NCBI GenBank assembly: GCA_001464455.1 | Contig: LNEI01000027.1 | Coordinates: 1-64,000, forward strand | Direction: 5' to 3' | Length of the DNA: 64,000 nucleotides | From: Acidobacteria bacterium Ga0077534 | GTDB taxonomy: Bacteria > Acidobacteriota > Blastocatellia > Pyrinomonadales > Pyrinomonadaceae | In this document: one piece after another, positions 35,449 to 62,398 of the stretch | Numbering within the stretch: position 1 is the first letter of the stretch | How the letters are laid out: every line of letters starts with the position of its first letter | Notes under the pieces: model-generated | What the model was told of the DNA's origin: nothing | What the model saw: the letters and a program-made list of their open reading frames with translations, nothing else | Databases searched by the model: none | Program-made: the position numbers and the translations under genes

Positions 35449-37650
35449 CTAATTCCTCTGGGTGTACCGTTCGCGAACGATCTGTGGCGTGTCTAAATTT
35501 CTTCCTGCCTTGATGTTGGTCGCGAGGCGGATGAACTGGGCCATTGACCAAGCGAGCGGCGTTGCCGAACCGGTGCCTTCGCCGAATTTGAGGTCGGGGA
35601 CGAACTGTTTGTCGGGGGATCTTAGATCGGGTTTGTCCCAGACCTGTTCTGGGATCATCAGGCCTTCGTTCGCGAACGCGGCCATGTGCGAAAGCCGATT
35701 GCTTCCGGCCATGCATTTGTAGTCAAACCGCTCGGTCGCCTGAGCACATCCGGCAAGTTCGTATTGCCCGCGCTCACCGGAAAGCAGAACCCACAGGCGC
35801 CCTTTTCCAGTATATTTCCCATCCCAATTCCAACGCCGGCCATCGTCCATTTCGCCGTAGCCGTCGTTGTTGTAGCGGTAGAAGCCGGGGCCGTTGGGGG
35901 TTTCGACCTTGATGACCTGATCGATGACCTTGACGGATTTTGCGATCAGTGGATCGTCGGCTGGTTTTAGTCCGAGGCGGACGAGTTCGAGGAAGCCGGC
36001 ATCGACGATGTCGCGTTCGTCGAAAGAGCCCGCACCGTTATTTAGCTCGATCTTTTCGCCGGCGTCGGGTTTGCCGTTCTGGGTGATGCGCAGGTAATAG
36101 TTGCCGTCGCCGTATTTGCCGGTTTTCGTCGCGGTCCATTTTTCGATGTTTGCGTGCCATTCATCGGCAGTCGCGAGGTATTTGGCGGCTGATGCCGTAT
36201 CGCCATTTCGTTTTGCAATGTCGGCGGCGCATACCAAACCCGCGATCTCGGCGGCGATGGTCGAGGGCGAATAGCCCGATTCCTCTTCCCAACGCTCCTG
36301 CGGCGTAGCGGGGCCGTTTTTGACTATGAAATCAGCGGCTTTTTTCAGATGATCTTCGTACGTCGGCTTATCAAACCGCCCGAGCTGCCAGGCCATTATC
36401 AGCGGATACGCCACCTCGTCCATCTGCAGCGAACCCCAAAACGGCCGCCCGTCGAGCCACGAATTCTGCGGAAAACTCCCGTCCGGTTTTTGCTGAACCT
36501 TCAGCAAAAAATCCAGAGCCCGCTCAGCCGCCGCCTTGTCGCCAAGTGCCAAAAACGCGGTAAAAACCTGATAAAGATCACGCGACCAAACCAGATGATA
36601 ACCGCCGATGTTGTTCTCATTAGCGTTCTCACCCCCGCCCCACGGGACGGTCAAACTAGCAATATTCGCCCCACGAGCCGTCTTGTCCTCAAGGATCTTC
36701 AACTGCATCGCCGCCATATTGAACTGAGCCTGGTGTTTTGGATCGACTCTGGGAAGCGTTTTGACGTAATCGGCCCAGCCTTGCTCATACATTGCAAGGG
36801 ATCCTTTGAAGCTGATTCCGTCCATAGCCTGTTCCCCATCAGCCGATTTGGATCCGAACACTAAAATCGCTACAAATTGCGATGGCGCGTCGATTTTAGC
36901 TGTTTGGACCAAGTTCCCAACACCCGCCTTGATAGTCGGACTACCAATCTTTCCGAAATTCCGTAGCTGGGTAATGCCGTCCGAACCCGCGAACGAAGAA
37001 TCAATCTCTGAGATTGGGCTACTGAAGAAGAGCTTCGAGCTTACATTCGCCTTTTCATCCAGAGACGTGAGCATCGGGCTTCCCCCTAACTCGCAGGCGA
37101 TACAGTTACTTCGACGTTTCAATCCGCCTTGATCGCCCATCCCGCTATTTCCAAGCGACGGATCGTATTGAACGTAGAGATTTAAGCCCGGCTGCTTCGC
37201 CTCGAACGCGATATCAATGAAAATTGTGTCAGGGTAGGAACCGACCGTGTAAGTTTTCTTGATCTTCCATTTCCCCGACTTCGCCGTATTTACCTGCTGA
37301 AACGTAAGTGAATCGGGCCGGAGGACTTTGATCTGGTGGATCGCGTCGTCCTGCTCGGTTTCGACCTTTTTTGTCTTTGGATCGACGACTATGAACTGCA
37401 GAAGATGAACGTTCGCAACGGTTACGTCAGGATAGTAAACCTCGGTCATCACACCCTGAGCGAGCGTGAACCAGACCTTACTTTCGAGCGTAGCTGACGA
37501 ACCGACGGCCTGTTTCCCGGCCGTCGCCCACTGAGCGTCCTTCCCCGGCCCGCCGGGAGCGGTAGATTGAGCGCTCCCGTTTAACGCGAAGACGCAAAGT
37601 AGCAAAGACGCAAAGGAAAACCAGACCAACTTCGTCGTAAATACTTTCAT
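35449..37650 (-). CDS. secreted GH15 glucoamylase/glucodextranase
   Basis: 733 residues with signal peptide about 1-27 (hydrophobic FSFASLLLCVFALNG, cleavage near GSAQS). Residues ~30-290 resemble the bacterial glucodextranase N-terminal domain, followed by the (alpha/alpha)6 GH15 domain. Conserved blocks: NNIGGYHLVWSRDLYQVFTA, QERWEEESGYSPSTIAAEIA (general-acid Glu), and GEGTGSATPLAWSMAQFIRL (general-base Glu). The enzyme releases glucose from non-reducing ends of alpha-glucans outside the cytoplasm. The signal-peptide core is encoded by one arm of a cgcaaag-type inverted repeat (arms 37581-37616 and 37658-37693), and the ATG sits in the loop. It is the last gene of the block. Confidence 0.92.
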   Translation of the reverse strand: MKVFTTKLVWFSFASLLLCVFALNGSAQSTAPGGPGKDAQWATAGKQAVGSSATLESKVWFTLAQGVMTEVYYPDVTVANVHLLQFIVVDPKTKKVETEQDDAIHQIKVLRPDSLTFQQVNTAKSGKWKIKKTYTVGSYPDTIFIDIAFEAKQPGLNLYVQYDPSLGNSGMGDQGGLKRRSNCIACELGGSPMLTSLDEKANVSSKLFFSSPISEIDSSFAGSDGITQLRNFGKIGSPTIKAGVGNLVQTAKIDAPSQFVAILVFGSKSADGEQAMDGISFKGSLAMYEQGWADYVKTLPRVDPKHQAQFNMAAMQLKILEDKTARGANIASLTVPWGGGENANENNIGGYHLVWSRDLYQVFTAFLALGDKAAAERALDFLLKVQQKPDGSFPQNSWLDGRPFWGSLQMDEVAYPLIMAWQLGRFDKPTYEDHLKKAADFIVKNGPATPQERWEEESGYSPSTIAAEIAGLVCAADIAKRNGDTASAAKYLATADEWHANIEKWTATKTGKYGDGNYYLRITQNGKPDAGEKIELNNGAGSFDERDIVDAGFLELVRLGLKPADDPLIAKSVKVIDQVIKVETPNGPGFYRYNNDGYGEMDDGRRWNWDGKYTGKGRLWVLLSGERGQYELAGCAQATERFDYKCMAGSNRLSHMAAFANEGLMIPEQVWDKPDLRSPDKQFVPDLKFGEGTGSATPLAWSMAQFIRLATNIKAGRNLDTPQIVRERYTQRN

Positions 37651-37693
37651 TTTCTTACCTTTGCGTCTTTGTCTCTTCGCGACTTGGCGTTAA
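37581..37693. repeat. inverted repeat of the cgcaaag family around the GH15 start codon
   Basis: The arms are 37581-37616 and 37658-37693. After reversal they agree at about 30 of 36 positions (blocks TTAACGC, AAG, CAAAGACGCAAAGG). The loop contains the GH15 start codon and leader, and the left arm codes for the signal-peptide core. Related copies: 42455-42488, 42531-42564, 56915-56939 and 62224-62256. Confidence 0.7.
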
Positions 37694-37698
37694 AAAAA

Positions 37699-39093
37699 CT
37701 ATTTCCGTCTAAATATCCTGAATTTAAACCCATCCAGATGCAGCGTCGGCAATCCGACATTTGGTTGCGCCGCTTTCTGAGCTTTCGCATCATCGGGTGG
37801 CATGGGCTCGCCGTAGTATGGCGTGATCTCTTCGTAATTTCCCGCGGTCTCGACTGAGCCGAAGAACGGGGCGTTTGTCATATTGATGGCGACTAGCAGC
37901 TCTTCGTTTCCCGACTTGCGGGAAAATGTTAGCACGCGGTTTTCATCCGAATTTCGCAGCCACGTCAGTTCGCCCCGACGGAGGGCCATCGAGCTTTTTC
38001 GCAACGCGATCATTTCTTTGTAAAACCGCGGAAATTCGGGCCGACGGGCTTTCGTATCCCAAAAAATCGGCATTTTTTCAAAGAGCGCGGGCCAGCCCGA
38101 TTCGGTTGTGTCGCCGACCTCCATCCCGTTGAAAACCAGCGGCACGCCGTCCATTGTGAACATCAGAGCCTGAGCCGCGAGAGCACCCTTTTCGCCAAAA
38201 CGAGCTATGGCTCGACGCTCGTCGTGATTGTCAGAAAAACGCATCCGGATCGCGTTCTTCGGGAAAACGGCCCGCTGATCTTCCCAAACTTTTCGAACGG
38301 CCGACGCCGGAGCCGTGCCGTGGATCGCCTTGTCCATAGCATGGTGAAATTCCCACCCATAGTCGAGGTCAAACGCCTTGACGAGCAGATCGGGCTTTTC
38401 GGCTTCGGCGAGCCAGATGGTGTTCGGCTTGATCTTGTCGACCTCAGCCCTCGCTTCTTCCCAGAAGTCGGTCGGGATCATGAGGGCGACGTCGCAGCGA
38501 AAACCGTCGAGGTCGTAATCGCGGACCCAGCTTTTCAGGTTCTCGATCATGTATTTACGGACCGCTCGCTTCGAGTAATCCAGCCCCGCGACGTCGGCCC
38601 AGTCCGCGACCGGCGGGACGATCTCGCCTTTCTCACCTTTTTTGTAGAACTCAGGGTTCGACATGATCAGTTTGTTGTCCCACGCGGTGTGGTTCGCGAC
38701 TATGTCGATTATCACCTTCAGCCCGCGTTTGTGGGCTTCGGCGACGAGACGTTTCAGGTCGGCGGGCGTTCCGTAGTCGGGATTTACGCCGTAATAGTCC
38801 TGCACCGCGTAAGGCGAGCCGATCGTGCCTTTCTTTTTTAACTGCCCGATCGGATGCACCGGCATCAGCCATAGCACGTCAACACCGAGCGTTTTCAACC
38901 GGTCGAGGTCGGCCGTGATCGAATTAAAATCGCCCTTCTGGGAGTATGCACGCTGCCAGATCTGATAGATGACAGCGTCACGGATCCAATCCTGCGAGCT
39001 GCGTGCGGTTTCCTTAGAAACGTCACGTGATGGTTGCTGGCCAAGAACGCAGCTCGCAAGAAAGACTGTTAGTATGATCGACTTGAAATTCAT
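37699..39093 (-). CDS. exported GH13 alpha-amylase family enzyme, possible lipoprotein
   Basis: 464 residues from the ATG at 39093 (MNFKSIILTVFLASC); the upstream ORF extension lacks support. ILTVFLASC ends in a good lipobox (LASC), so it may be anchored by Cys15 rather than freely secreted. The four GH13 regions are visible: I IDIVANHTAWD, II GFRCDVAL (nucleophile Asp), III WLAEAEKPD (acid Glu), IV FSDNHDER (transition-state Asp). The C-terminal ~80 residues form the usual beta domain. It would cut internal alpha-1,4 bonds. It lies ~50 bases upstream of the GH15 gene in the same direction. Confidence 0.9.
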   Translation of the reverse strand: MNFKSIILTVFLASCVLGQQPSRDVSKETARSSQDWIRDAVIYQIWQRAYSQKGDFNSITADLDRLKTLGVDVLWLMPVHPIGQLKKKGTIGSPYAVQDYYGVNPDYGTPADLKRLVAEAHKRGLKVIIDIVANHTAWDNKLIMSNPEFYKKGEKGEIVPPVADWADVAGLDYSKRAVRKYMIENLKSWVRDYDLDGFRCDVALMIPTDFWEEARAEVDKIKPNTIWLAEAEKPDLLVKAFDLDYGWEFHHAMDKAIHGTAPASAVRKVWEDQRAVFPKNAIRMRFSDNHDERRAIARFGEKGALAAQALMFTMDGVPLVFNGMEVGDTTESGWPALFEKMPIFWDTKARRPEFPRFYKEMIALRKSSMALRRGELTWLRNSDENRVLTFSRKSGNEELLVAINMTNAPFFGSVETAGNYEEITPYYGEPMPPDDAKAQKAAQPNVGLPTLHLDGFKFRIFRRK

Positions 39094-39180
39094 AGGATCT
39101 ATTGAATTCAGTGGATAGTTGAAAGTGAAAAGTGGATAGTGCACTGTCCACTACCGACTAACCACTACCACAGTAGTTGA

Positions 39181-40509
39181 TTAATGCCCGCCGCCCGCGA
39201 CTTCGATATTCGTGGCACCTACATCTTTAACTATCAAAACGCTCACCGCCGCAACGAGCATCGATGCACCGCCGAGCATGACAGCGTTCAGCGGGTTATC
39301 GGCGAGAACAGATTTATATATCTGCGGCGTCAGGAAACTTTGGACGACCTGCGGAATGACGATAAACAAATTGAAAACGCCCATGTAAACGCCCATGCGT
39401 TCGGGCTTTATCGCACCGGCGAGGATGACGTACGGCATCGACAGGATCGAAGCCCAGGCGATCCCGACGCCGGCCATTCCGATCCAGAGGAAATAGGGAT
39501 TTCCGGCAAAGTAGGTCGAGATCAGGCCCAGTCCACCGCATGTGAGGCAAAGAATGTGGACGCCTTTGCGGCCGATCTTGTTTGCCAGCGGCGGGATCGC
39601 GAACGCGACAAGGAAGCAGACGAGATTATAAATAGCGAAACACACGCCGCCCCATTCGGTACCCTGTTTGAAGAGGTCAGATTTGTCATCGACCGAGCCA
39701 AAGACGTGTCTCGCAACCGTCAGGCCGTAGAACTGCCACATAAAAGGCAATGCAAACCACGTGAAAAACTGCACGACGGCAAGCTGTTTCATCGTAGTCG
39801 GCATGTCGCGAAAAGCTTCGCCGACCTCTTTCAGGATATTGCCGACTATGCTGCCTTGGGCGTTCTTCCTGCGAAAACTTTCGATGTCCTCTGGCGGGAA
39901 TTCGTCTGTTGTGTAGACCGTCCAAAGCACGGCGGCAAGAAAGGCGACGGCTCCTACGATGAAGGCGATCAGAGTCGAATATGGAATGCCGCTTTTCATT
40001 ACGCCCACCACGCCAAGGAACGTGAGGATGTACGGAAGAGCATTTGCCAGCGTCGAGCCGATGCCGATAAAGAAAGACTGCATGACGAAACCCAGCGTTC
40101 GCTGCTCTTCGGGCAGTTTGTCACCGACGAACGCCCGGAACGGTTCCATCGTGATGTTGATCGATGCGTCCATTATCCAAAGCAGGCTCGCGGCCATCCA
40201 CAGTGCCGAGGAATTGGGCATCAGCAGCAGACAGATACTCGCAATAACCGCACCGACCAGAAAGAACGGCCTCCGCCGGCCGAGCCGCGTCCAGGTCCGG
40301 TCGCTCATCGCCCCCACGATCGGCTGAACAAGCAAGCCAGTCAGCGGTCCGGCGAGCCAAAGATACGGCAGCGAGCTTTCGTCGGCACCGAGATATTTAT
40401 AGATCGGCGACATGTTCGCCATCTGCAATCCCCAGCCAAACTGGATGCCCAGAAAGCCGAAGCTCATGTTCCATATCTGCCAAAATGTCAGCTTTGGTTT
40501 GTTCTGCAT
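39181..40509 (-). CDS. MFS sugar transporter (SLC45-like, maltose/maltodextrin type)
   Basis: 442 residues, about 12 membrane helices. SLC45/sugar-type signatures: FWQIWNMSFGFLGIQFGWGL at the N-terminus, NMSPIYKYLGADESSLPYLW, GAMSDRTWTRLGRRRPFFLV (RGRRRP-type A-motif), and AFVGDKLPEEQRTLGFVMQS. The second half contains PLANKIGRKGVHIL. In many Bacteroidetes and Acidobacteria similar proteins sit inside amylase clusters and are thought to import maltose or maltodextrins with protons. It lies between the two exported GH13 genes, consistent with importing their products. Confidence 0.88.
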   Translation of the reverse strand: MQNKPKLTFWQIWNMSFGFLGIQFGWGLQMANMSPIYKYLGADESSLPYLWLAGPLTGLLVQPIVGAMSDRTWTRLGRRRPFFLVGAVIASICLLLMPNSSALWMAASLLWIMDASINITMEPFRAFVGDKLPEEQRTLGFVMQSFFIGIGSTLANALPYILTFLGVVGVMKSGIPYSTLIAFIVGAVAFLAAVLWTVYTTDEFPPEDIESFRRKNAQGSIVGNILKEVGEAFRDMPTTMKQLAVVQFFTWFALPFMWQFYGLTVARHVFGSVDDKSDLFKQGTEWGGVCFAIYNLVCFLVAFAIPPLANKIGRKGVHILCLTCGGLGLISTYFAGNPYFLWIGMAGVGIAWASILSMPYVILAGAIKPERMGVYMGVFNLFIVIPQVVQSFLTPQIYKSVLADNPLNAVMLGGASMLVAAVSVLIVKDVGATNIEVAGGGH

Positions 40510-40539
40510 AAAATCAGTGGTCGGTGGCCAGTGGCCAGT

Positions 40540-40596
40540 GTTCAGAGGCGGGCTTGCCCGCGGTACGCGCGAAGGCGGGCAAGCCCGCCTCTGAAC
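40540..40596. repeat. perfect 22-bp inverted repeat (REP-like)
   Basis: GTTCAGAGGCGGGCTTGCCCGC (40540-40561) pairs perfectly with 40575-40596; 13-base loop. It lies between the MFS and GH13 genes and has no T-run. It could slow or stop transcripts of the upstream gene, and it resembles REP palindromes. Confidence 0.7.
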
Positions 40597-40603
40597 GTCC
40601 CCG

Positions 40604-42583
40604 CTATTTTGTCGATAGAATAACGGACTTTCTCGCCGGTATGGTGAAATCTACGCGGCCGTCGGCGGCTACTTTTACGTCGGTGATAACCCCGAGCTTA
40701 TCGACGAGCGATGACGATCGCGGGATCTGGTTGATCATTCCGATATCAAAGCTCAGCTTTGCCGGTTTGGTGTCGTTGTTGAACGCTACGAGCACAGCCT
40801 GATTTGCGGTGACGCGGGCGTACGCTAATTGCTGCTCTTCGTCGTGCAGGTCGAGCGATTTGCCGCGTCGGAGCGGTTCGAGTTCCTGACGGAGGCGGCC
40901 GAGTTTGGCGAGGTGATCCCAAACGTCTCTCTCCGTGGCACTCCGCCCCGACGCGGCAAATTTGTCGATCCCGTCGGCGGGAAATCCGCCCGGAAAATCA
41001 CGGCGGTTGTCCGGGTCCGGCCCGCCGGGCATCGCGATCTCGTCACCGTAATAGAGCAGCGGCGTGCCGCGCGATGTCATTATCAATGTCTGGGCAAGCT
41101 TTAGCCCGTCAGTCGTCGCTCCGGGTTCGTTCATGAACCGCAGCATGTCATGCACGCCGAGAAATGTCGTCAGAACTTCGGGCCGCGGATAAAGCCAGTC
41201 GCGGGCGAATGCCTGCGAAACGGCACGGATCGATTTTCCTTGTGCGAACGCGTCGCGGATCGCGTAAAAGACGGTGAAATCGAAGAGCGTATCGATCTCA
41301 GTATCGATGCCGTCGTGGCCTTTACGGCCGGTTTGGAAATACGAAAGCAGTGCCGGATCGCCGTCGTAAAGCTCGCCGAGAATATTCAATTTTGGATACT
41401 GCCGCTTGATCGCCGAGCCCCACTTCGACCAAAAACTACGCGGTACGTGGGGCAGCGTGTCCATTCGGATCGCGTCGTAGCCGATGGTTTCGATCCACCA
41501 GATGCTGTTCTGGATCAAATAACGCTCGACCTCGATGTCGTCCTGATTGAAGTCAGGAAGGATGTCGACAAACCAGCCTTCGAGGTTTCGTTTCTGTGTT
41601 TGATACGTCGCCCGCGGATTCATCGCGGTCCATTTTTGCCAGTTGTTTGAGAGGTGTTGCTTTGCGGTTCCGTTCCACCAGGTCGGCGTCGGTGGATCTT
41701 CTGCCCAGACGTGGTATGGGCCCGTATGGTTTGCGACCTGATCCTGGATCATCTTGATGCCCATCGCACGAGCTTTATCCGTAAGCTCTTTCAGCTTTGC
41801 GATGTCACCAAAGTGCTCGTCGGTGTTGTACATATCGACGGCGCCGTAGCCGTGATAGCCGGTCGTTTTTTCGCCGTCGTAGACCTCTTTCTCGTCGAGC
41901 TTGTTGTTATTGTCGTAGATCGGCGTCGTCCAGATCGCGGTTACGCCGAGGGACTTTAGGTAGGGAAGTTTGCTGATCATCCCCTCGAGGTCGCCCCCGT
42001 GGTAGCGACGGGTTTTCGAGCGGTCGAACAGGCCTTTTGATATCGCCGGGTCGTTGTTCGACGGGTCGCCGTCGGCGAAACGGTCGGGCATGATCAGATA
42101 GATCACGTCGTCGGGCGAGTAGCCCTGGTATTTGCCCGCCGGGTTCGGACGCGTCTTTATTTCGAAGTCGAAATTGGCTCTTCCGCTTGCTCCGACGACC
42201 GTTAGTTTCTGTACGCCCGTTTTTGCTGTCCGTGCGATCTTGAGATCGAAAAACAGATAGTGGCCGTTTTCGCTGTAACGATAATTGCTCGCCGCCAGGC
42301 CGCTTGCCGCCGGAACGGTCACACGTGCTCCTTTCAGATCCTTGCCGCGAAGCATCACTCGCACCGGATCGACCGTCATACCGGTCCACCAATTCGGCGG
42401 CTCGACCTTTTCGACCGACTGGGCGAGGGTCGCGCACGTTAAGAAAAGAACCCCAACGCAAAGTCGCAAAGGGGCTAAGACGCTAAGGAATACAAACTTA
42501 GCGTTCCCTATAGCCGTCAAGAATTCTTTGCTTTGCGTCTTTGCTTCTTCGCGTCTTCGCGTTAAAAACCTATTTGCGCCCAT
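40604..42583 (-). CDS. secreted GH13 neopullulanase/cyclomaltodextrinase-like enzyme
   Basis: 659 residues. The N-terminal ~50 residues are unusual: a basic stretch (LTRRREEAKTQSKE) then a hydrophobic core (FLSVLAPLRLCVGVLFL) with cleavage near TLAQS. A TTG at about 42520 would start just before this core. Residues ~60-150 are a beta-domain as in neopullulanases. GH13 regions: I IQDQVANHTGPYHVW, II AIRMDTLPHV, III NILGELYDGD, IV FLGVHDMLR, where the usual NHD is VHD. The leader is encoded by an inverted pair of cgcaaag repeats. It overlaps the malQ stop by 14 bases. Confidence 0.9.
   Translation of the reverse strand: MGANRFLTRRREEAKTQSKEFLTAIGNAKFVFLSVLAPLRLCVGVLFLTCATLAQSVEKVEPPNWWTGMTVDPVRVMLRGKDLKGARVTVPAASGLAASNYRYSENGHYLFFDLKIARTAKTGVQKLTVVGASGRANFDFEIKTRPNPAGKYQGYSPDDVIYLIMPDRFADGDPSNNDPAISKGLFDRSKTRRYHGGDLEGMISKLPYLKSLGVTAIWTTPIYDNNNKLDEKEVYDGEKTTGYHGYGAVDMYNTDEHFGDIAKLKELTDKARAMGIKMIQDQVANHTGPYHVWAEDPPTPTWWNGTAKQHLSNNWQKWTAMNPRATYQTQKRNLEGWFVDILPDFNQDDIEVERYLIQNSIWWIETIGYDAIRMDTLPHVPRSFWSKWGSAIKRQYPKLNILGELYDGDPALLSYFQTGRKGHDGIDTEIDTLFDFTVFYAIRDAFAQGKSIRAVSQAFARDWLYPRPEVLTTFLGVHDMLRFMNEPGATTDGLKLAQTLIMTSRGTPLLYYGDEIAMPGGPDPDNRRDFPGGFPADGIDKFAASGRSATERDVWDHLAKLGRLRQELEPLRRGKSLDLHDEEQQLAYARVTANQAVLVAFNNDTKPAKLSFDIGMINQIPRSSSLVDKLGVITDVKVAADGRVDFTIPARKSVILSTK
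42455..42564. repeat. inverted pair of cgcaaag-family repeats coding the GH13 leader
   Basis: Arms 42455-42488 and 42531-42564; by hand count 26 of 33 aligned positions agree after reversal. Both arms are translated as part of the N-terminal leader of the GH13 gene that starts at 42583. Same family as 37581-37693. Confidence 0.65.
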
Positions 42584-44099
42584 AGACTTCTGTTAACTCC
42601 CTTAGTCTCAAAGTTATTTCTTCCGTCAGCGAGCCCGCGGCGAGGCGCCATTGCCAGTTGCCGCCGCTTGATGCGGGTAAATTCATTCTGCCTTCGGTGC
42701 CGATGCCCAACATATCCTGCACGGGAGCCATCGCAGTGTCTGCGATCGATGCCCAGACGGCGCGGATCATGTCCCAGTGGATCTCTTCGCCGTCGGTGTT
42801 CAAATATTTCAGGCAATATTCGCGTTCGCGGCTGATTTCCGCGTCGTCACGCGTCGAGCCGGCTCCGGCCTGCGAAAGCCACCAACCGACTGTTGTGTCG
42901 TTGTCATGTGTGCCCGTATAAGCGGCACAATTTGTAACGTAGTTGTGCGGCAGGTCGTGATTCTTCGGGTCGCCGCCAAAAGCGAACTGCAAAATGCGCA
43001 TTCCCGGGAAACCGAATCCGTCACGCAGCTCTTCGACGTCGGGCGTGATCACGCCGAGGTCTTCGGCGATAACCGGAAGTTCGCCGAGACTTTGCCGTAG
43101 AGTCGTAAAAAGCTCCTTGCCCGGCACATCGACCCAGCGGCCGTTCTCGGCCGTTTCATCGCCGCCCGGAACTTCCCACGCCGCCGTGAAGCCGCGAAAA
43201 TGGTCGACGCGCACGATGTCAACCTGTCGCAGGGTCGCGTACATCCTAGCCGCCCACCAGCGAAACCCGTCTCGCCGCATGGCCTCCCAGTCGTAGATCG
43301 GATTGCCCCAGAGCTGGCCGGTCTTCGAGAAATAATCAGGCGGAACACCCGCCACGACCGTTGCCGAGCCGTCTTTATTCAGTTTGAATTTGTCCTGATT
43401 ACACCAAACATCGCTCGAGTCGAGAGCGACGAAGATCGGGATATCGCCGATGATCTTTACGCCATTTTCGTGAGCGTATAGCTTGACGGCTTCCCATTGG
43501 CGATAGAATAGAAATTGATAAAACTTTTCGCCCTGGATCGCTTCGAAGAGCCTTTCGGATGCCTCGATCAACGTTTCACGGTCGCGGAGCTTTTGCTTTT
43601 CGGGCCATTCGTACCACGGCCGCTGGTCATTTTCCGCCTTTATCGCCCGATACATTGCGTAGTCTTCGAGCCAGAAGCCGTTCTCCTGCATAAACCGCTC
43701 GAACCGCCCGCGAAGGTCGACGCTCGTGACGTGATGGAAACCTTCGTACGCCTTCGCGAGAAGCCAATTCTTCCAAGTGTAAACACCGCCGTAATCGACC
43801 TTGTGAGCGTCAAAATCAGGAGCGTCGGCCAGGTCGTTTTTGGTGATCAGATTGTCGTCGATCAGTTTTTCGGGCGAGATCAGCAAAGTGTTTCCGGCAA
43901 ATGCCGAAAAGCACTGGTACGGCGAATCGCCATAACCCGTCGGCCCGAGCGGCAGTATTTGCCAGTAAGTCTGCCCGGCTGCCCCGAGGAAATCGACAAA
44001 ATCCATTGCCGCCGGTCCGAGATCGCCGATGCCGAAACGGCCCGGTAGCGAGGTTGGGTGAAGGATAAGGCCGGATGCTCTTTCGAGTTTTTTCGCCAT
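42570..44099 (-). CDS. malQ: 4-alpha-glucanotransferase (amylomaltase, GH77)
   Basis: 509 residues, no signal peptide, so cytosolic. It moves glucan chains between maltodextrins and frees glucose. Family signatures: ASGLILHPTSLPGRFGIGDL, WQILPLGPTGYGDSPYQCFS, GDIPIFVALDSSDVW, VRVDHFRGFTAAWEVPGGDE (catalytic Asp), IAEDLGVITPDVEEL and TGTHDNDTTVGWW. It precedes the GH13 gene with a short overlap, so the two are likely translated from one transcript. Confidence 0.96.
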   Translation of the reverse strand: MAKKLERASGLILHPTSLPGRFGIGDLGPAAMDFVDFLGAAGQTYWQILPLGPTGYGDSPYQCFSAFAGNTLLISPEKLIDDNLITKNDLADAPDFDAHKVDYGGVYTWKNWLLAKAYEGFHHVTSVDLRGRFERFMQENGFWLEDYAMYRAIKAENDQRPWYEWPEKQKLRDRETLIEASERLFEAIQGEKFYQFLFYRQWEAVKLYAHENGVKIIGDIPIFVALDSSDVWCNQDKFKLNKDGSATVVAGVPPDYFSKTGQLWGNPIYDWEAMRRDGFRWWAARMYATLRQVDIVRVDHFRGFTAAWEVPGGDETAENGRWVDVPGKELFTTLRQSLGELPVIAEDLGVITPDVEELRDGFGFPGMRILQFAFGGDPKNHDLPHNYVTNCAAYTGTHDNDTTVGWWLSQAGAGSTRDDAEISREREYCLKYLNTDGEEIHWDMIRAVWASIADTAMAPVQDMLGIGTEGRMNLPASSGGNWQWRLAAGSLTEEITLRLRELTEVYGRK

Positions 44100-56914: not shown

Positions 56915-56939
56915 ACGCAAAGCCGCAAAGAACGCAAAG
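56915..56939. repeat. single cgcaaag-family repeat unit
   Basis: A 25-base stretch reading ACGCAAAGCCGCAAAG and then AACGCAAAG, the same family as the repeats inside the amylase leaders. It lies between rsmG and a terminator-like stem. Confidence 0.55.
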
Positions 56940-62133: not shown

Positions 62134-62398
62134 CGTCTCATTCCATTCGAGATCTGTATCAGATCGACACAACTTGTGCCCCAGACAGCACCCGCCGCAC
62201 CCTCAGTCACGATATTTCTTTCCCTTAGCGCCTTTTCTTTGCGAACTTTGCGTTAAATAGATCACGCTTGCAAGGCTTCACGGCCAAGAAGGACCTTTCA
62301 GACCGCTTCCAATAAACATTCAAACTGATCACTACCGTCGCATTTGACACGTTACGCAACATTATGCTATCTATGAAACATAGCCGCAATACTGGCAG
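62134..62398. other. intergenic region with one cgcaaag-family repeat
   Basis: About 265 bases. A reversed cgcaaag-type unit is at 62224-62256 (CTTTGCG...ACTTTGCGTTAA). Upstream of the terminator (62030-62066) there are two direct copies of GCAGACAGTCT and a half-site of the palindrome at 8251. No gene is seen. Confidence 0.5.
62224..62256. repeat. cgcaaag-family repeat unit (reverse orientation)
   Basis: CTTAGCGCC...CTTTGCG and ACTTTGCGTTAA, matching the arm consensus seen in the amylase leaders in reverse. Confidence 0.5.

Follow-up and report, generated by a model that had tools for sequence, protein, structure and literature searches.

The closest described precedent for a leader encoded by a dispersed repeat is a single locus in Yersinia, where the RU-2 MITE lies in YPO1552 (Delihas 2007, PMC2759123; PMC2229807). 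In the available part of that account RU-2 concerns one main locus, one element family and a conserved sequence of 168 bp (PMC2759123), whereas the hairpins described here belong to several families, occur at several exported gene families, are associated with GxxExxY genes and combine unit-periodic arms with loops that are not conserved. Rickettsia palindromic elements (RPEs) are likewise palindromic repeats in frame within protein genes; as far as the accessible text of the source goes they occur in many kinds of proteins, whereas for the hairpins here the signal peptide is a frequent coding place (PMC2229807). REP elements share with the hairpins the form of short dispersed palindromes, a mostly intergenic location and a spread for which a separate protein is presumed necessary, but in the sections of the source at hand they are 20–40 bp long, carry GTAG or CGTC tags and are paired with RAYT genes, the hairpins here being longer and two-armed (PMC3733652). 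PARCELs are also dyad-symmetric coding repeats, often in membrane proteins and lipoproteins; in the portion of the source consulted they form tandem amphipathic protein domains and are not described as forming a signal peptide (PMC2996958).

The DNA analysed here, a stretch of 64,000 nucleotides referred to as the window, corresponds to C27:1-64000 of the source genome (G000; 4.2 Mb in 32 contigs). A sequence-only reading of the window had proposed that the signal peptides of two amylases are encoded by a dispersed repeat and had known of no description of this. The Yersinia locus is a precedent at one site; the observation itself is right, and its extent is larger than first claimed.

Hairpins at the starts of two amylase genes

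The starts of the GH15 and GH13 genes are each associated with an inverted pair of arms (Table 1), at coordinates that had originally been given correctly to within a few bases. Both leaders are repeat-coded, as had been read: codons 12–23 of GH15 and codons 32–43 of GH13 lie inside the pyrimidine arms. We regard it as very probable that the leaders are translated repeat sequence.

Table 1. Coordinates of the repeat-associated features in the window and of the GxxExxY element elsewhere in the source genome
Feature	Position	Strand	Basis
GH15 enzyme, Glucodextran_N + Glyco_hydro_15, 733 aa, exported type	35449..37650	-	domain matches
GH15 hairpin, pyrimidine arm; h-region, encodes SFASLLLCVFAL	37580..37619	-	sequence
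GH15 hairpin, loop containing start codon 37650-37648	37620..37654	-	sequence
GH15 hairpin, purine arm, upstream of start codon	37655..37694	-	sequence
GH13 enzyme, Cyc-maltodext_N + Alpha-amylase, ORF of 659 aa	40604..42583	-	domain matches
GH13 hairpin, pyrimidine arm; part of h-region, encodes FLSVLAPLRLCV	42455..42490	-	sequence
GH13 hairpin, loop with in-frame TTG (42520-42518), possible start	42491..42527	-	sequence
GH13 hairpin, purine arm; basic stretch TRRREEAKTQ if ATG 42583 used	42528..42563	-	sequence
Lone copy of units, type B remnant, between ORFs	56915..56939	+	sequence
Lone arm ending GCGTTAA, between ORFs	62224..62256	-	sequence
GxxExxY gene (at C6:82351) in hairpin loop, same-family arms	L036, G000 C6:82292-82765		sequence + profile match

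The GH15 start codon falls between the two arms, again as originally noted, and the AAGG of the preceding purine arm is located 8 nt upstream of the ATG, where it would provide a ribosome-binding stretch. Judged from sequence only, the predicted GH15 leader, M-K...K...SFASLLLCVFALNGSAQ, has a basic n-region, a hydrophobic h-region and a cleavage region. The nearest named relatives of the enzyme, among 48 that served solely to name the group, are from MAGs titled Pyrinomonadaceae or Acidobacteria, with an identity of at most 71%. For GH13 either the ATG at 42583 or the TTG in the loop may be the start; were the former used, the purine arm would form a basic N-terminus. This ORF opens at ATG 42583-42581, overlapping the stop codon of malQ, and the hairpin starts directly after that stop codon (window 42570-42583). 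The inverted-repeat score is 23.0 at GH15 and 16.0 at GH13, and as RNA both regions fold far better than their shuffles (z of -6.59 and -4.60, respectively). No Rfam match was found within positions 37000-43000 of the window.

The repeat family in the source genome

The repeat is dispersed, as had been claimed, with CGCAAAGNCGCAAAG (up to one mismatch) found at 59 places in the 4.2-Mb genome compared with 7 for the reversed pattern. Two layouts were distinguished by eye. In type A each arm consists of about four 8-bp units, the outer edges are TTTAACGC and GCGTTAAA, and the loop spans some 20–100 bp; type B has short arms in the reversed arrangement, with the pyrimidine arm first, and is mostly intergenic. 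Examples of type B are seen at C20:2480-2546, C15:50644-50692 and C13:34257-34307. The loop sequence is unconserved, differing from copy to copy. The two single units that had been listed from the window also exist and lie between listed ORFs (Table 1).

Ten clear two-arm pairs of type A are present in G000 and 51 in the genus sample described below, with a MITE-like layout of inverted repeats around a short non-coding interior at dispersed sites. Three of the ten cover the starts of exported-type genes, namely GH15, GH13 and a 549-codon lipoprotein-type ORF at C20:26418, and the remaining seven are not leaders. The leader of the 549-codon protein, MLAQNFQRKDAKSQSRKGKQRRSFFGIFFATLLLCVFALNSSSC, is almost wholly hairpin, and a lipoprotein signal (...RKGKQRRSFFGIFFATLLLCVFALNSSSC) is predicted in it from the sequence. 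A PF00144-type hydrolase (C13:40800-42281) provides a degenerate fourth case. When block shuffles were made over all the upstream regions tested, 1 of 351 reached an inverted-repeat score of 13.0; the upstream regions of orthologues without the repeat score about 7–11.

Why the arms read as signal peptides

The pyrimidine strand had been said to code for hydrophobic residues, and in the 8- and 10-bp units tested it is indeed hydrophobic and stop-free in all three frames, while one of the two 9-bp units tested (ACAGGATGA) is non-hydrophobic in one frame. The purine strand of CGCAAAGA and CGCAGAGA is basic with no stops, that of CACAGAGA has no stops and a near neutral charge, and that of the 10-bp units contains stops. 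Owing to the palindromic pairing of the arms, a neighbouring gene always encounters, on its coding strand, the purine arm and then the pyrimidine arm, in whichever orientation the element lies. The third unit of the type A copies in G000 is without CG, so that one frame loses an arginine codon, and the frame freed of arginine, FA(S/T/A)LLLCVFALN, is the one in which the arms at GH15, the lipoprotein, L235, L293 and L296 are read.

Orthologues across the genus

Four exported proteins (GH15, GH13, the lipoprotein and the hydrolase) were compared with their orthologues across 41 genomes of the genus, with the cytosolic malQ as a control. A match to GH15, in some cases of partial length, was found in 21 of the 41. 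Among the GH15 orthologues the cleavage region is alike and the leader sequence is not kept: L080 has a hairpin of the CCACAGATAAACACGGATA family, L076 one of the CCGCAGAGACACGGAG family and L079 a ACAGGATGAAT hairpin upstream of the h-region, only weak repeats are seen in L073 and L077, and L072, L081 and L094 have ordinary export-type leaders with no repeat. The orthologues of the lipoprotein, GH13 and the hydrolase give the same picture of differing hairpin families at one spot, and the hydrolases L318, L320 and L329 have export-type leaders without a repeat. At L092 (G008 C272) a G+C-rich hairpin of another kind, of the GGCGGGCTTTGCCCGCC type, lies just upstream of the GH15 signal peptide.

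Orthologues without the repeat do have an export-type leader, which goes half way towards what the sequence-only reading had named as evidence against itself, but the leader sequences themselves differ and only the cleavage region is alike. Since these repeat-free orthologues have export-type leaders, the repeat would have replaced a signal rather than created export. The proposal of the sequence-only reading that an insertion can make an export signal at once is supported only in part, to the extent that existing signals appear replaced by repeat; a non-systematic look met no cytosolic family that had turned exported.

Under a strict rule (score of at least 13, end of the right arm within 60 bp upstream of the conserved start, and frame open), the repeat was counted in 3/14 distinct rows for GH15, 3/13 for GH13, 9/29 for the lipoprotein, 18/30 for the hydrolase and 1/29 for malQ. 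This amounts to 33/86 exported rows against 1/29 (p = 1.4e-4), malQ being an imperfect control with little room for an N-terminal arm because its conserved part begins at codon 6. The sole malQ case, L342, is a 13-bp hairpin upstream of the ATG. Relaxing the rule to a score of 12 and a distance of 80 bp gave 41/86 against 1/29 (p = 4.6e-6), with five of the 41 arms (L079, L092, L156, L159 and L161) entering the leader yet being non-hydrophobic. When the translation of the arm had in addition to be hydrophobic (KD mean of at least 0.8, a limit chosen by the analyst at the time of that count) the figures were 36/86 and 0/29 (p = 3.7e-6). When an inverted repeat at any point within 240 bp upstream was counted, the contrast was weaker (39/88 exported rows against 5/29 for malQ, p = 0.014), which argues that the position of the arm is what matters. 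The 88 exported rows correspond to 86 distinct ones, as L082/L093 and L084/L094 are the same genes twice, both non-hits; L083 and L354, which have no N-terminus, and L199, which has a run of N, were left out.

On the hydrolase tree the presence or absence of a repeat takes 2 changes compared with 12 for the repeat family, and on the lipoprotein tree 6 compared with 11, with states that are the analyst's own labels and modest branch support. L331 and L338 on the former and L193, L196 and L197 on the latter are unlabelled. The starred branches alone force 1–3 changes per repeat family, with 2 in each of two families and 1 in another.

A survey of the elements and their neighbours

The pattern AACGCARAGACGCNRAG gave 136 hits in 21 of the 41 genomes. 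The 120 hits outside G000 fell into 102 clusters, of which 100 were examined, yielding 103 elements; 51 of these are of type A with a score of at least 13. Thirteen of the 51 are leaders. Six belong to PF00144 hydrolases (three by Pfam, the rest by orthologue search or sequence), two (L296 and L306) to orthologues of the 549-codon protein and one (L295) to a lipoprotein-like ORF with no Pfam match, the others being those of M14, M16, amidohydrolase and PIG-L enzymes.

With the G000 elements added and the neighbours classified by hand, the arm forms the N-terminus at 16/18 exported compared with 0/27 other neighbours (p = 2.4e-10), or, counted by gene family, at 9/11 compared with 0/20 (p = 2.7e-6); these p-values are indicative because five families (M14, M16, amidohydrolase, PIG-L and L295) were taken as exported by leader and cleavage motif alone. 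Nor are the element and orthologue counts independent, since at least seven leader loci belong to both. At the cytosolic and membrane neighbours counted, which include SufB, a release factor, biotin carboxylase, adenylate kinase, CPSase and Nramp, the arm ends 2–17 codons before the next ATG. The two exported exceptions, a gamma-glutamyltranspeptidase (L221) and the gene at C27:158694, each have their own signal after the arm. The enrichment at starts of exported genes that the sequence-only reading had put forward as a check is seen for elements that enter a start; it does not extend to the repeat as a whole, most copies in G000 (all except three of the clear pairs and the degenerate one) not being leaders.

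Pfam covered 40 of the 84 ORFs beside elements; for the seven neighbours in G000 and for L270+ and L306+ the classification was made by eye instead. Excluded from the element table were L210+, L213+, L220-, L221+, L234+, L236+, L259+, L267-, L286+ and L304-, together with shorter ORFs and five internal insertions. Five of the 51 type A elements (L248, L264, L275, L299 and L300, CGCAGAG family) are in frame inside coding sequences, giving, as in RPEs, an in-frame palindrome within a conserved protein, and acceptance of the hairpin is therefore not confined to leaders. Their hosts are terminase-like, an ABC ATPase and a CoaBC-type DFP domain, with one unassigned ORF common to L248 and L299; the hosts of L264, L275 and L300 have Pfam matches. 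Across the phylum, a scan with one strict pattern of the 10-bp family found 9 places in 6/297 genomes, not enough to build another sample centred on elements.

GxxExxY genes within inverted repeats

One hairpin in G000 has a GxxExxY gene in its loop (Table 1), which matches TIGR04256 at 129 bits (cut-off 35) and PF13366 at 121 bits (cut-off 22). PF13366 matches occur in 38 of the 41 genus genomes and in 59 of 149 in a phylum sample; G038 has 8 hits to the pattern yet no PF13366 match. The gene lies between inverted repeats at 28 of 31 genus loci, made up of the G000 gene and 30 from among the best matches, whereas 3 of 31 reach the score when flanks are mismatched as a comparison, and nearly all the enclosing repeats in the genus are of the same unit-like words. 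At further loci in the phylum 21 of 25 genes are enclosed by inverted repeats, against 5 of 25 for mismatched flanks; two of the 21 (L414 and L418) have the pyrimidine arm first. Across Acidobacteriota the inverted unit-periodic repeats around GxxExxY genes are of many families (L036 and L369-L423).

A D...ExK arrangement is kept in the protein (D68 at 56/56 loci, E78 at 55/56 and K80 at 56/56) which, going by the name of the family, may be a PD-(D/E)xK-type active site. The G000 protein, the one searched, gave no PADLOC, PHROG or PDB sequence match, and no account of hairpins flanking GxxExxY genes was found in a literature searched mostly outside subscription journals. By this association GxxExxY would be the best lead to a mobiliser, and the chances that it does mobilise the hairpins appear about even.

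G000 also has ten PF01797 (RAYT-type) matches. Periodic repeats enclose none of the eight RAYT-type loci examined, on which basis mobilisation by RAYT proteins was rejected; four of the eight have other, mostly G+C-rich, inverted repeats. At L438 (C27:250937-251218) a Y1-transposase match is flanked by inverted repeats that extend for some 130 bp at least and do not resemble the periodic hairpins.

A model for the origin of the leaders and its alternatives

The genomes compared are mostly MAGs by title, and in their sequences one can read repeat-coded leaders, the recurrence of these over gene and hairpin families and the inverted repeats around GxxExxY genes. On balance it would seem likely that the hairpins are mobile and GxxExxY-associated, with short copies that serve as cassettes for start and export and supplant each other at the same site. 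They would be dispersed mobile elements consisting of two inverted arms of 8- to 10-bp purine-rich units and an unconserved loop, the probable parents being the copies whose loop carries a GxxExxY gene, and the short copies being probably non-autonomous. At a gene start, the purine arm would supply the ribosome-binding stretch and, in 8-bp families, also the basic n-region, and the pyrimidine arm would supply the hydrophobic h-region.

Signal peptides are loosely specified, and random sequences were reportedly found by Kaiser and colleagues in 1987 to be often able to serve as export signals. As signal peptides tolerate many basic-then-hydrophobic sequences, insertions at gene starts would survive mainly if the product is exported. 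A gene would then come to depend on its hairpin leader, and elements arriving later would insert into the existing one or take its place, leaving the site filled but by another family. What we infer from these patterns is that the hairpins move, that GxxExxY mobilises them, that the products are exported and processed, and that in-place replacement is the mechanism. A wider form of the model can be put forward tentatively, as possible though still doubtful: that the GxxExxY hairpins are a separate mobile class, driven by a small PD-(D/E)XK nuclease and having unit-periodic arms where other elements have fixed ends, that their palindrome and strand bias make them orientation-independent, nearly frame-independent start-plus-signal-peptide cassettes, and that competing families repeatedly rewrote the export signals of secreted enzymes in whole lineages.

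The most serious alternative is pure tolerance, where neutral palindromes are left unpurged wherever the signal peptide is tolerant of sequence and the hairpin confers nothing more. It would fit with most copies being intergenic, with arms that stop short of the ATG at the cytosolic neighbours counted and with the in-frame hairpins inside five other proteins. The hydrolase spot, on the other hand, keeps a repeat while its family changes, which is easier to understand if the gene needs the repeat, although tolerance combined with recurrent insertion could yield the same pattern; we consider tolerance alone rather unlikely. A REP-type identity with movement by RAYT (Y1) transposases, the GxxExxY genes being passengers or having landed in hairpins, is very improbable. 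REPs are likewise palindromic and, in the part of the source available, sometimes intragenic (PMC3733652), and RAYT-type genes are present in G000, but it is the GxxExxY genes, at most of the genus and phylum loci examined, that the repeats enclose, and none of the eight RAYT-type loci examined.

If the arms arose at their present sites through slippage, with one arm copied into an inverted partner by template switching and no insertion, this would account for their short tandem units and for loops that are unconserved between copies, unlike the interior of ordinary MITEs. The same words are nevertheless found at dispersed places with fixed outer edges, and the same sort of repeat encloses a conserved gene elsewhere, making this origin highly improbable. 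Composition alone would have a purine-rich ribosome-binding stretch and a pyrimidine-rich signal peptide complementary by chance. The arms do have such a strand bias, but the low scores of repeat-free orthologues and the identity of the words in leader arms and intergenic copies speak against chance, which was rejected on the shuffles and must be regarded as extremely improbable.

If the cassette model applies, new signal peptides have a visible source in mobile hairpins whose strands read as basic and hydrophobic peptides, the turnover of signal peptides becomes traceable gene by gene, and the widespread but little-studied GxxExxY family gains a testable role. Annotators should be aware that an N-terminus like RKDAKTQ...LCVFASLR can be translated repeat, in which case it is probably genuine if the product is exported and probably spurious if it is cytosolic. 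Nested hairpins, with one family within the loop of another, are present at C24:30967 in G000 and at L208 and hint at the way one family supersedes another. Immediately ahead of the leader of the 549-codon gene, a stretch resembling TTAGCACAGAA is found repeatedly in L179-L198, whether or not a repeat is present, and if this is a promoter the hairpin would sit at the very start of the mRNA.
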